Shown piece by piece: positions 34,783 through 41,983 of a DNA stretch of 64,000 bases. The position numbers were made by a program, and so were the translations under genes. Below the pieces are notes generated by a model. The model did no database searches. It was given only the letters and a program-made list of their open reading frames with translations, and was not told where the DNA came from. The DNA comes from Candidatus Micropelagos thuwalensis. GTDB lineage: Bacteria > Pseudomonadota > Alphaproteobacteria > RS24. The stretch spans positions 248,001 to 312,000 of the forward strand of contig NZ_AWXE01000004.1 of the NCBI RefSeq assembly GCF_000469155.1, in the 5' to 3' direction. How positions within the stretch are numbered: the first letter of the stretch is position 1; every line of letters starts with the position of its first letter.

Positions 34783-36616
<1,834 letters not shown>

Positions 36617-36622
36617 CCTCTA

Positions 36623-38167
36623 TTATTCAGCCGCTTGAGCTGTTGCCTCTGCCGCCTGCCAGCGTAAAATCGGCTGACGCGCCGCACGGGTTTCATCCAA
36701 ACGACGACGTGGCGCAAGCTCAGGCGCATTCGTAAAGCGTTCCATTTCTCCCGCTTTGGCACAGCGTACCAAATCCTGCAAAGTTGCGATAAACAAATCC
36801 AGCGTGTCGCGACTTTCAGTTTCCGTCGGCTCAATCAGCATCGCGCCATGCACCACCAATGGGAAATACATCGTCATCGGGTGATAGCCTTCATCAATCA
36901 TGGCCTTGGCGAAATCAAGCGTCTCCAAGCCTGTGCCCTTCAGGAAGCCGTCATCAAACAGCGCCTCATGCATACATGGCCCGGCAAATGGAGCCGTCAT
37001 GACATCCTGCAAAGATGCCAGAATATAATTTGCATTTAACACCGCATCTTCGGCTACCTGGCGCAGACCATCAGAGCCATGGCTTTTCATATAGGACAAA
37101 GCACGGACAAACATGCCCATCTGCCCGTGAAACGCGACCATCCGCCCAAATGGTTGGTCGGCGCTTTGTGCCTCAAGCTCAATCAAGTCAAAGCCATGCT
37201 CACCTGCCACTACATAGGGCAGAGGCGCAAAGGCCGCTAGCCGATCGGAAAGAACCGTCGGCCCTGACCCCGGACCACCGCCGCCATGCGGGGTTGAGAA
37301 TGTTTTATGCAAATTAATATGCATCGCATCAATGCCAAGATCTCCTGGTCTGACGCGCCCGACAATGGCGTTAAAATTCGCTCCATCACAATAAAAATAA
37401 CCGCCAGCCTCGTGCAGAGCATCGGCAATCTCTATGATGTCGCGCTCAAACAATCCGCATGTATTCGGATTGGTCAGCATAATCGCGGCAACATCATCAC
37501 CCAACTTGTCCTTAAAAGCGACCAGGTCAACACGACCATCATGATTGGCCGGGATTTCATCAACCTTAAAGCCCAGCAAAGCCGCCGTAGCCGGATTTGT
37601 ACCATGCGCGGACTCCGGCACCAGAACGCGGCGGCGTGTTTCCAATTCACCACGTGCTTCAATCGCCGCACGTATTGCCATCATGCCGCATAATTCACCA
37701 TGAGCACCTGCTTTTGGCGAAAGCGCAACCGCAGGCATATTCGTCAATGTTTTCAACCAATGCGCCAACTCATCCATTAATGCTAACGCACCTTGCACTG
37801 TCGAGACAGGCTGAAGCGGATGAATATCTGAAAAGCCGGGCAGACGTGCCATTTTTTCATTAAGGCGTGGATTGTGCTTCATGGTGCAAGACCCCAGTGG
37901 ATACAGACCCGCATCAATCGAATAGTTTTTCTGGCTGAGCCGTACAAAGTGGCGTAATGCCTCAGGCTCTGACAGACCGGGCAGATCCGGCTGAGCAGGA
38001 GCCATGCAATCACCAAGTCTGTTGCTCACCTCTGGTACGGGCTCAAGGTCAACGCCCGACTTGTCGGCACTCCCAATTTCAAAAATAAGCTTTTCTTCGA
38101 GGATTAAAGCTTGATGCCCGGTAAAGGTTTGTTTTCTGTCCTGTTTAATAGGCGTTATCTCATTCAT
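36623..38167 (-). CDS. gcvPB: glycine dehydrogenase (decarboxylating) subunit 2
   Basis: This PLP-carrying half of the split P protein, about 514 residues, decarboxylates glycine and passes aminomethyl to lipoyl-GcvH. It shows [52 protein letters not shown] and the PLP lysine in [21 protein letters not shown] chose the ATG at 38167 over an in-frame start at 38179; it overlaps the gcvPA stop by 8 nt. The C-terminus is slightly extended and Ala/Glu-rich. It is the fourth gene of the riboswitch-controlled gcv operon. Confidence 0.95.
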
Positions 38168-39518
38168 GCCGATACCCATTCAGCACATCGCGCAGTGCTG
38201 CCTCATAAATTGCTAAATCTTCTTCGGTATTCGCCTCGGTTGCTGCGACAAGAAGCACATCGTTCATACCAGTGTCCGGCATAAGGCGCGATACCGGCAC
38301 GCCGCCCAGAACCGACTTTTCTGCCAATGCCTCAACAACCTGTCCGGCTGGGGCAGGCAGGCGAATTGCAAACTCATTGAAGAAAGCCGGCGTCAACACC
38401 TCTACACCATCAATAGTTTCTAGCTTTTCAGCCAGTTGTACGGCGCGGGCATGGTTCAATTGGGCAAGTTGCCGAAGACCCTGACCGCCAAGCAGTGTCA
38501 TATGTGCAGTAAAAGCCAACGAACACAGACCTGAATTGGTGCAAATATTAGACGTTGCTTTATCACGCCGGATATGTTGCTCACGCGTTGAGAGCGTCAA
38601 AACGAAACCGCGTTTGCCATCTGCATCAACTGTTTCACCACATAAACGACCTGGCATCTGACGAAGATATTTTTCTTTGGCGGCAAACAATCCTACATAA
38701 GGCCCACCAAAATTAAGACCATTACCAAGGCTTTGCCCTTCACCAGTCACAATATCAGCACTCATATCACCCGGACGCTTCAATAAACCGAGTGAAATAA
38801 TTTCGGGCACAACAACAATCAACAAACAGCCGCGTGACTGGACGTCGCGTGCAAGTGTCGAATAATCCATAATGTTGCCGAAGAAGTCAGGATACTGCAC
38901 CACGACGCTAGATGTATCATCATCAATAAGAGCAATCAGATCTTCTACGCCGCTAACGGAGTCTTCAGGTGAGGCAACATCAAACCCACCCATATCGGAG
39001 AGATTATCTATCACCCCACGATAATGTGGATGCAAACGCGCAGAAATCACTGCACGTTTTTTGCGTGTAATCCGGTGCGCCATCAACACAGCCTCACCCG
39101 TGGCCGTTGACCCATCATACATTGATGCATTTGCAACCGGCATACCGGTCAATTCACAAACCTGTGTTTGAAACTCAAACAGATACTGCAAAGTACCTTG
39201 AGTGATTTCAGGCTGATAAGGCGTATAAGACGTCAAAAACTCTGACCGTTGGATGATATGATCCACACTGGCAGGCACATGGTGTTTATAAGCGCCTGCG
39301 CCACAAAAAAATGGCACGGTAGAGGCTGTTTTATTTTGCGCCGCCATAGCAAAGAGGTCGCGCTCAACCTGCATCTCGCTTTGATGCGGTGGCAGATTAA
39401 TTGGGCCGTCGAGACGCGCAGTTTCAGGCACATCTATAAAAAGGTCATCAATGGCATCCACGCCAATACGCGATAACATCTCGCCACGATCCGTCGGGGT
39501 TAGAGGTAAATAACGCAT
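38160..39518 (-). CDS. gcvPA: glycine dehydrogenase (decarboxylating) subunit 1
   Basis: This 452-residue N-terminal half of the split P protein forms the glycine decarboxylase with GcvPB. Family segments include [14 protein letters not shown] at the start, [66 protein letters not shown] and [15 protein letters not shown]. Its ATG shares one base with the gcvH stop (TAATG). It partners with GcvPB, GcvH and GcvT encoded in the same operon. Confidence 0.96.
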
Positions 39519-39892
39519 TAACCAAGCTCCTTTACATAGTCGGCATAAGCTGCCTCATCCATCAAATCGTTCAACTCGTCGGGGTTGGACACTTTCATAG
39601 TGAAGAACCATCCACTTTCCGTCGGATCCTGATTCACCAATGCTGGGTCATCTTCTAATTTGGTATTCGGCTCAACAATTTCACCCGATACCGGCGCATA
39701 GACTTCACTCGCAGCCTTTACGCTCTCGACAACAGCAGCGTCATTGCCCTGTTGAAATTGGCGTCCTGCTTCAGGCAATTCGACGAAGACAACATCACCA
39801 AGCTGTTCTTGGGCATAATTCGTAATGCCGATGCGCGCGACATCCCCCTCAATATCAATCCATTCATGGTCTTTGGTAAATTTCTTGCTCAT
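39518..39892 (-). CDS. gcvH: glycine cleavage system H protein
   Basis: This 124-residue lipoyl carrier shuttles the aminomethyl group between P, T and L proteins. The lipoylation site is Lys59 in [14 protein letters not shown]. The N-terminal [24 protein letters not shown] and the C-terminal [19 protein letters not shown] are normal. It overlaps the gcvT stop by 4 nt (ATGA) and the gcvPA start by 1 nt, indicating tight translational coupling. Confidence 0.97.
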
Positions 39893-41070
39893 GGTTTTGT
39901 CCTCAAATATTTATGTTCCACAAAGGGCATGCTGGTGATGTGAGCCAGCATCGGTTTGCCGCGAATAATTAGCTGTACTTGTGTGCCGGGCGCCGCATGT
40001 TCGGCACTCACATATCCCATCGCTATCGGGGCTTGCAAACTAGGGGCAAACCCGCCACTCGTGATGCGCCCGATTGGGTTATTATTCATGTCATGAATCT
40101 CCGAGCCTTCCCGCGCAGGTGCTCGCCCATCAGGTTTAATCCCGACACGAAAGCGATCAGGTTTTTGCGATAATTGCTGAGATATTTTATGCGCGCCGGG
40201 AAAATTGAGTGACTCACGACGGCGACGTGGCACAGACCACATTAAATCAGCTTCAACAGGTGTCGTGCCGGTATCAATATCGTGACCGTAAAGGCAAAGG
40301 CCTGCTTCAAGCCTTAAACTATCCCGTGCGCCCAAACCAATCGGTGCAACCGCATCATTTGCGAGGAGAAGCGCAGCAAAATGTGAAGCCATTTCATTTG
40401 GAAGAGAAATCTCAAAACCGTCTTCGCCAGTATATCCGCAACGAGAAATGATAATCTTTTCACCTTCATAATCTGCATGACAGGCCTGCATGAAAGCCAA
40501 ATCCGCTACGGCGGGTAAATGCTCTTTCAAAACGGCTTCTGCCAATGGGCCCTGCAATGCCAAGAGCGCTCGATTTTCAACAGACAGTCTGGCCTTACCG
40601 GCAAGTAATTGAGCGATATGGGCAAAGTCATCATTCTTACACGCGGCATTGACAACCAACCAGAGCGTGTTCCCGAAACGGGTCACCATCAAATCATCAA
40701 GAATGCCGCCATCTTGATTTGTAAGTTGTGTGTAACGAATACCGCCTTCTTTTAACGAAATAATACCACCGGGGACGAGTTCTTCAAAAACAGGGGCCAC
40801 ATCGCTATCGGGGTCTTCGGGAAATAACTGGGCTTGCCCCATATGGGAGACATCAAACAACCCGGCTTTCTCCCGCGTATGGAGGTGTTCGCCCATAACA
40901 CCCAGACCATATTGAACCGGCATGTCATATCCGGCAAAAGGAACCATTTTAGCGCCCAGTTGAACATGCATATCAAAGAGCGGGGTTCTGGCAAGACTCT
41001 GCGAACCCGGAGATGCTGAAGCATCCGTGCCTTTATTGTTACCGTCTAAATCTATTGTAGAGTTGGTCAT
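39889..41070 (-). CDS. gcvT: glycine cleavage system T protein (aminomethyltransferase)
   Basis: This 393-residue folate enzyme releases ammonia and makes methylene-tetrahydrofolate from aminomethyl-GcvH. It shows [27 protein letters not shown] (starting near 29), [57 protein letters not shown] and TSGGFAPSL. The N-terminus has a polar extension of about 25 residues before the conserved part. It is the first gene of the gcvT-gcvH-gcvPA-gcvPB operon, behind the glycine riboswitch. Confidence 0.96.
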
Positions 41071-41090: not shown

Positions 41091-41149
41091 CTCCCTAAAC
41101 TCAAGAGTAAACACACCAATACCGAACCACTCATATGGAACGTGCTGCG

Positions 41150-41370
41150 CCCTCCTCTGTCTTGGGAACCTGAGAGAATTATGGCTCATGCATAATTGAA
41201 TAATCGATCAATTAAATGCCATTTACCCCGTCGGTGAGATTAGCCAAATTCAAAACTAAGAATTAGAACCAACCTGCTTTCCAGAGTCCTTAATTGAAGC
41301 GGTCCTTTTGCCTGAGAGTTTCCGAGGGCGGTTGCTCCTTCGGCGCTGAATTTAATCAGTCTCTTCCGCA
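41150..41370 (-). ncRNA. tandem glycine riboswitch
   Basis: Two glycine aptamers lie in series on the minus strand upstream of gcvT. Aptamer 1 (about 41370-41276) starts GCGGAAGAG and contains GCGCCGAAGGAGCAA, AACTCTCAGGCAAAAGGACCGC and GGACTCTGG. Aptamer 2 (about 41245-41150) contains CACCGACGGGG, CTCTCAGGTTCCC and AAGACAGAGGAGGG. The linker is about 30 nt. Aptamer 2 has an AT-rich extended internal arm. In known cases glycine binding switches on gcv expression. The roughly 80 nt after aptamer 2 have no stem plus U-run, favouring translational control. Confidence 0.93.
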
Positions 41371-41388
41371 ACAATATAAAAGGTAAAT

Positions 41389-41419
41389 ACAATATGGAAT
41401 CGAGTCGACCAAGAGTCAA
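41389..41419 (-). promoter_or_regulatory. putative gcv operon promoter with three GANTC sites
   Basis: On the minus strand TTGACT (41419-41414) is followed after 19 nt by TATTGT (41394-41389), or after 17 nt by CATATT (41396-41391). GANTC sites at 41413-41417, 41402-41406 and 41397-41401 fill the spacer and overlap the -35. The riboswitch begins about 20 nt downstream. GANTC in the -35/-10 spacer is the arrangement described for GcrA-dependent promoters in Caulobacter. Confidence 0.5.
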
Positions 41420-41452: not shown

Positions 41453-41983
41453 TTAATATCCGAGACGCCGCTTCTTTTCTGAAATATTTGACGCCAGTTC
41501 TCCGGCAGATAATTCAAAGCCGACAATAACTTGCATGTCTGGTGAAACCGAGTCCAGTTGAATATCAAGTCCGTTTATCATTTTCTTGAACCCGATAAAA
41601 TCACCTGATTTATCGGCCTTTAACGTCACAGAAATATTTTGAGTCATGCGCGACATGACCTCATCATCTGCTGTTATATAAGCAATAAAAATGGGTAGCG
41701 TCGCATTATATGTACCCGCAGAATTTGCATAGAAGCGACCGCTTAAAAATAATGCCATTTCTATACGAGAAGCATCTTTTACCTCACAAGCCAGATCAAC
41801 CCAATTTAACTCTGCCGTCCAATTTTGTTCAGCACTTCTAACGAGACGCTCCCCATCTGCAAGAATAAACGGCTTAGGGCAGGCAACATAAGGAAGCGGC
41901 TCCTCTCCTGCACAGGCGGACAGTAGGGTTCCCATTAAAGTCACCAGCAGAAAAGTTTTTGTTATTTTAGACATAAACATCAT
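41453..41983 (-). CDS. unrecognised lipoprotein
   Basis: This 176-residue protein has a lipoprotein signal peptide (MSKITKTFLLVTLMGTLLSAC, lipobox LLSAC with Cys24). The mature part contains two further Cys in VACPKPF and LACEVKD and no repeat or catalytic motif that I recognise. The start could be the first Met or Met4; AAGGAAAC precedes the first. It is divergent from ispH. The gcv promoter lies just beyond its 3' end. Probably attached to the inner or outer membrane facing the periplasm. Confidence 0.75.
   Translation of the reverse strand: MMFMSKITKTFLLVTLMGTLLSACAGEEPLPYVACPKPFILADGERLVRSAEQNWTAELNWVDLACEVKDASRIEMALFLSGRFYANSAGTYNATLPIFIAYITADDEVMSRMTQNISVTLKADKSGDFIGFKKMINGLDIQLDSVSPDMQVIVGFELSAGELASNISEKKRRLGY

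Follow-up and report, generated by a model that had tools for sequence, protein, structure and literature searches.

The promoter of the glycine-cleavage (gcv) operon carries a GANTC between its -35 and -10 hexamers that nearly all readable members of a family of small-genome bacteria share, and this single spacer site, not the overlap with the -35 or the triplet of GANTCs around it, appears to be what selection has kept. From these sequence comparisons we favour, with moderate confidence, methylation-dependent control of the gcv promoter with GcrA as the likely reader, and a coupling of the gcv operon to the cell cycle is probable. This places a core metabolic operon, a one-carbon supplier, under an apparent alphaproteobacterial cell-cycle methylation mark, next to the methylase gene. 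The window (the whole 64,000-nucleotide stretch of DNA analysed) contains the following relevant features:

34783-35895, minus strand: ccrM, GANTC adenine methylase (start placed by alignment within the family)
35918-35930, minus strand: ccrM's own putative promoter, a TTGACG box followed by GACTC
35994-36518, minus strand: rnhB, ribonuclease HII (true start further upstream)
36623-38179, minus strand: gcvPB
38160-39518, minus strand: gcvPA
39518-39892, minus strand: gcvH
39889-41070, minus strand: gcvT
41147-41294 (G000:C4:289147-289294), minus strand: glycine riboswitch aptamer 2, 35.6 bits, above the cut-off
41290-41378, minus strand: glycine riboswitch aptamer 1, RF00504, 67.1 bits
41391-41396, minus strand: -10 hexamer CATATT (CATAAT in genome G004)
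41397-41401, minus strand: GANTC site 3, GATTC, between site 2 and the -10
41402-41406, minus strand: GANTC site 2, within CGACTC, lying 5 bp upstream of the -10 and conserved as the spacer site
41413-41417, minus strand: GANTC site 1, GACTC, formed by the -35 TTGACT and the next base
41414-41419, minus strand: -35 hexamer TTGACT (from the sequence and a promoter pattern scan)

Read on the minus strand, the gcv promoter is TTGACT-CTTGGTC-GACTC-GATTC-CATATT, with a spacer of 17 nt. It lies 12 nt upstream of the first riboswitch aptamer and transcription is predicted to start at about 41384. On the plus strand the sites read GAATC (41397-41401), GAGTC (41402-41406) and GAGTC (41413-41417), which on the minus strand correspond to a GACTC overlapping the -35 and to a GACTC and a GATTC that both lie within the spacer. 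The original prediction had placed three GANTCs here, in the spacer and across the -35, ahead of a riboswitch and the gcv operon with rnhB and ccrM downstream on the same strand, and each of these points was confirmed, the tandem aptamers both scoring above the Rfam cut-off. A promoter pattern scanner recovers TTGACT-17-CATATT; its promoter-like matches in the region are no commoner than in shuffles, so it is chiefly conservation that supports the promoter call.

Taken alone, the cluster is unremarkable. The 64-kb window contains 120 GANTCs where 228 are expected from shuffles, about half the expected frequency, and such scarcity is typical of genomes with CcrM (PMC3973325). A rough Poisson estimate from the window density gives about 0.05 triples of such span per window, which is of the same order as the 0.1 originally proposed; that figure, however, disregards the rest of the genome. 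Genome-wide, the estimate is one to three triples (about three for gaps up to 14 nt), and two with gaps up to 14 nt were found in the 1.96-Mb genome, the second falling in apparent coding sequence. Nor is the arrangement generally enriched: GANTC-N5-TANNNT showed no excess in upstream regions in a 464-kb genome sample, taken as stretches, and TTGAC-N7/8-GANTC gave 13 matches genome-wide against 20 for the reversed pattern, two further matches inspected besides gcv both lying in apparent coding sequence. On a genome scale the triplet has no significance of its own; what is significant is where it lies and, most of all, that it is conserved.

Conservation was assessed in a sample of the order, 28 genomes that form one alphaproteobacterial family of six genera and were searched for the glycine riboswitch. 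A gcv promoter was readable in 24 of them, and 23 of these 24, across five genera, have a GANTC between the -35 and the -10, compared with none of 23 gcv promoters from outside the family, nearly all alphaproteobacterial (Fisher 1.6e-12, shared ancestry ignored). All but one of the 23 sites are GACTC, placed 5 bp before the -10 position. When 12 representatives of genera g1, g3, g4 and g6 were compared, between-genus identity was 1.0 at the site and 0.31 in the flanking spacer. The distance from the -35 to the site shifts by 1 nt between genera, while the 5 bp from the site to the -10 position are constant. Of the 16 pentamer words that are palindromic around a free central base, GANTC is the most frequent, with 23 of the 24 spacers against four for the runner-up. 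A functionless chance cluster retained through shared ancestry would agree with the number of triples per genome, but it is scarcely credible given a site that is invariant in so divergent a spacer and that keeps its distance to the -10 position despite changes in spacer length. The family is nonetheless one lineage with shared ancestry, a caveat on the conservation argument.

The other two sites are less constant. Genus g1 (six genomes) has TTGACTCTTGGTCGACTC invariant; site 3 is confined to this genus, as GATTC or GACTC, and is absent in G001. Promoters of g4 and g6 read TTGACTC-N5-GACTC. The -35 is TTGACT in g1, g4 and g6, and site 1 overlaps it in these genera and in g5. In g3 the -35 is TTGACA and site 1 is hence lost, with the spacer GACTC kept in three of four genomes. 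Since site 3 is missing in G001 and the -35 site in g3, three sites are not required, and by this comparison the -35-overlapping site and site 3 are dispensable. The expectation that the arrangement would be conserved in relatives thus holds for the spacer GANTC and not for the triplet. Methylation could instead act on the polymerase directly, as m6A inside TTGACT and without GcrA. Dam sites act in this way in some enterobacterial promoters, and the overlap of site 1 with the -35 in four genera fits such a mechanism. We consider it very unlikely, however, because the spacer site stays in g3 after the -35 GANTC is gone, and because TTGACTC also occurs at the -35 in 8 of the 23 gcv promoters outside the family, which have no spacer GANTC. 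The -35 overlap, although present as predicted, may therefore be just TTGACT followed by C.

Natural variants within the family provide ready-made comparisons, with site 1 lost in g3, the spacer site moved in g5 and all sites lost in G011. The single g5 genome has TTGACT-17-TATACT with a GAATC two bp before the -10, and this shift suggests that selection may act on the CcrM target rather than on one fixed word. Five GANTCs fall in about 60 nt of the g5 riboswitch promoter region. In several g4 genomes the hexamer 5 bp downstream of the site is a weak -10 match and the exact -10 is uncertain. G011, from g3, is the single readable family genome without the spacer site, and ccrM still lies downstream of its gcv operon. 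Loss of the site through a broken gcv-ccrM linkage was considered for this genome and rejected; the gaps in G011 are runs of N.

Counting against the GcrA/CcrM model is the central base, which is C in 22 of the 23 spacer sites; a protein that reads GACTC irrespective of methylation remains compatible with this. A sequence-specific regulator independent of GcrA might recognise GACTC, in tandem and one helical turn apart in most genera, with methylation incidental. Besides the nearly invariant C, the recurrence of GACTC-N5/6-GACTC pairs at both the gcv and the ccrM promoters of the family would suit such a regulator. We regard it as unlikely, because g3 has a single GACTC, g5 uses GAATC at another register, mipZ promoters use GAATC, and N takes all four letters at the analogous sites of ccrM promoters outside the family. 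Of the extended motifs, CGACTC (PMC3708114) is present at the gcv spacer in g1, g4 and g6, and YGAKTCG (cited in PMC7987155) only in g1 (CGAGTCG, plus strand, 41401-41407); g3 and g5 have neither.

Methylation-dependent control by GcrA requires both proteins, and both are encoded. The predicted methylase matches C. crescentus CcrM (6pbd) over its length with an E-value of 1.2e-152, and its score of 615 bits against the NCBIfam CcrM model is below the Caulobacter-type cut-off of 830. The predicted GcrA matches the C. crescentus protein over the DNA-binding and sigma-binding domains (7ye1, 5yiu, 5yix). Judged by these matches, the CcrM and GcrA of the present genome are true orthologues, which supports the GcrA/CcrM proposal. 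GcrA was found in 23 of the 28 family genomes, and four of the five genomes where it was missed are less than 90% complete; the fifth, G015, is 94% complete, yet keeps the spacer site. We used promoters known from Caulobacter as positive controls. mipZ is activated by GcrA/CcrM in Caulobacter (PMC3667746, PMC3708114), and in the family mipZ upstream regions (L202-L207) those of g3, g4 and g6 have a conserved GAATC in the register seen at gcv, 5 bp ahead of a TATACT or TATACT-like hexamer; g1 mipZ also has a GAATC. Upstream of ftsZ in the family, no GANTC was found within 300 nt.

The gcv spacer site agrees with published CcrM-controlled promoters (PMC3708114, PMC4287350), as had been proposed. 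In Caulobacter, a CGACTC between the -35 and -10 of ftsZ is needed for CcrM-dependent activity (PMC3708114), and gcv has the same word in the same interval. Cell-cycle promoters with a GANTC in the spacer are activated at 40-60 min (PMC4287350), and the GcrA footprint on methylated ctrAP1 covers the -35 to the -10 (PMC3667746). As in ctrA P1, podJ and mipZ, gcv has a GANTC in or near the spacer in a genome that encodes GcrA and CcrM (PMC3667746, PMC4287350); unlike them, it can carry as many as three sites, of which one falls within the -35. By its sequence the gcv element fits this class, and the GcrA dependence that marks the class is predicted for it. Conservation among relatives is a further trait shared with CcrM-activated Caulobacter promoters, as is the register common to gcv and the family mipZ. 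The differences are that the gcv target, in contrast to ftsZ and mipZ in Caulobacter, is a metabolic operon behind a riboswitch, and that ftsZ of the family, unlike that of Caulobacter, has no such upstream GANTC. Tandem aptamers in the gcvT leader are shared with other glycine-riboswitch gcv operons (RF00504), but those sampled outside the family have the spacer GANTC in none of 23 cases.

In Caulobacter, GcrA stimulates open-complex formation and binds both sigma2 and methylated DNA (PMC7403470). At gcv, we infer methylation, GcrA binding, the start site, and the sign and timing of the effect as follows. The operon would be driven by a housekeeping (sigma-70) promoter, and CcrM methylation of the one spacer GANTC would determine how active this promoter is. 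Most likely, GcrA would be tethered to sigma region 2, the part of sigma that reads the -10, and would contact the methylated site 5 bp away and speed open-complex formation. A methylated site together with GcrA would raise initiation; hemimethylation of the site after replication, or a low level of GcrA, would lower it. The transcript would next encounter the tandem glycine riboswitch, so that two inputs follow one another: methylation and the cell cycle at initiation, and glycine in the leader. If this is true, DNA methylation acts in series with a riboswitch, and metabolism is wired to the cell-cycle clock outside the Caulobacter-type models. The literature searched makes no mention of gcv as a target of GcrA or methylation, and among titles and abstracts no paper was evidently on a link between GcrA and glycine cleavage.

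In 19 family genomes (from g1, g3, g4 and g6, and including the present genome) the contig extends as far as ccrM, and every one of them has the order gcvT-gcvH-gcvPA-gcvPB-rnhB-ccrM. In most genomes outside the family rnhB adjoins ccrM, but a search of the ccrM flank in these other alphaproteobacteria found no gcvPB. This fixed gene order is a new observation, and no paper treating ccrM and rnhB together was found in a literature search. It means that the gcv promoter heads a cluster ending in the methylase gene. Together, gene order and GANTC suggest that the gcv promoter may also feed ccrM. We assign a low probability to the idea that it is an upstream promoter of gcv-rnhB-ccrM, also gated by glycine, through which the CcrM mark acts back on ccrM; the epigenetic cell-cycle loop would then include a riboswitch that senses a nutrient. 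This feedback could even be the selected function, with the gcv promoter as the distal promoter of the unit and the coupling of glycine to the cell cycle secondary, an unlikely reading that is compatible with the GcrA mechanism and overlaps it in probability. In its favour, the gene order is fixed in the family and unseen in other alphaproteobacteria, gcvPB and rnhB nearly abut, no terminator-like site was found in the gcv-rnhB-ccrM gaps, and ccrM's own promoters carry paired GANTCs across the class. However, family ccrM keeps its own conserved promoter region and a DnaA-box-like site, so read-through may contribute little, and the linkage and the spacer GANTC, both confined to one lineage, count as one instance of association. 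The rnhB frame is open back to just past the gcvPB stop (36518-36620), with no ATG, GTG or TTG ahead of the internal GTG at 36518.

The conserved region upstream of family ccrM contains a TTGACG box followed by GACTC-N5/6-GACTC. The second GANTC is degenerate in the present genome (GACAC, 35907-35911) and kept in the other family genomes read. The longest ccrM open reading frame begins at 35913, compared with the alignment-inferred start at 35895. In alphaproteobacteria from outside the family, a TTGAC box was present in 24 ccrM upstream regions (among L167-L192), and in 14 of these it is followed within 24 nt by two GANTCs, the first at a variable position and the second at an almost constant one, at the -10. 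All four N letters occur in these pairs, which is what selection on the CcrM target as such would produce, and the pattern suggests that ccrM is autoregulated through its own mark throughout the class. The gcv promoter resembles these promoters in having a TTGAC box followed by a spacer GANTC, and differs in that the second ccrM site overlaps the start of the -10 and varies at N, whereas the gcv site is 5 bp upstream. A DnaA-box-like TGTGGATAA is conserved upstream of family ccrM (35967-35975 in the window), a second word resembling TGTGGATAA occurs near ccrM in some g3 and g4 genomes, and a DnaA input to ccrM is possible.

Several minor observations concern the surroundings of the gcv promoter. 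A small lipoprotein-like open reading frame at 41453-41983, upstream of the promoter, has no NCBIfam match; relatives of it occupy the same place in several genera and are weak outside the genus. In Phenylobacterium gcv leaders (L080, L081, L086), a GACTC lies directly before the first aptamer (GACTCTCGCGGGAGA), outside the spacer. In g5, the riboswitch promoter has three tandem TTTGACTC units together with GAATC and GATTC (L136:470-540).
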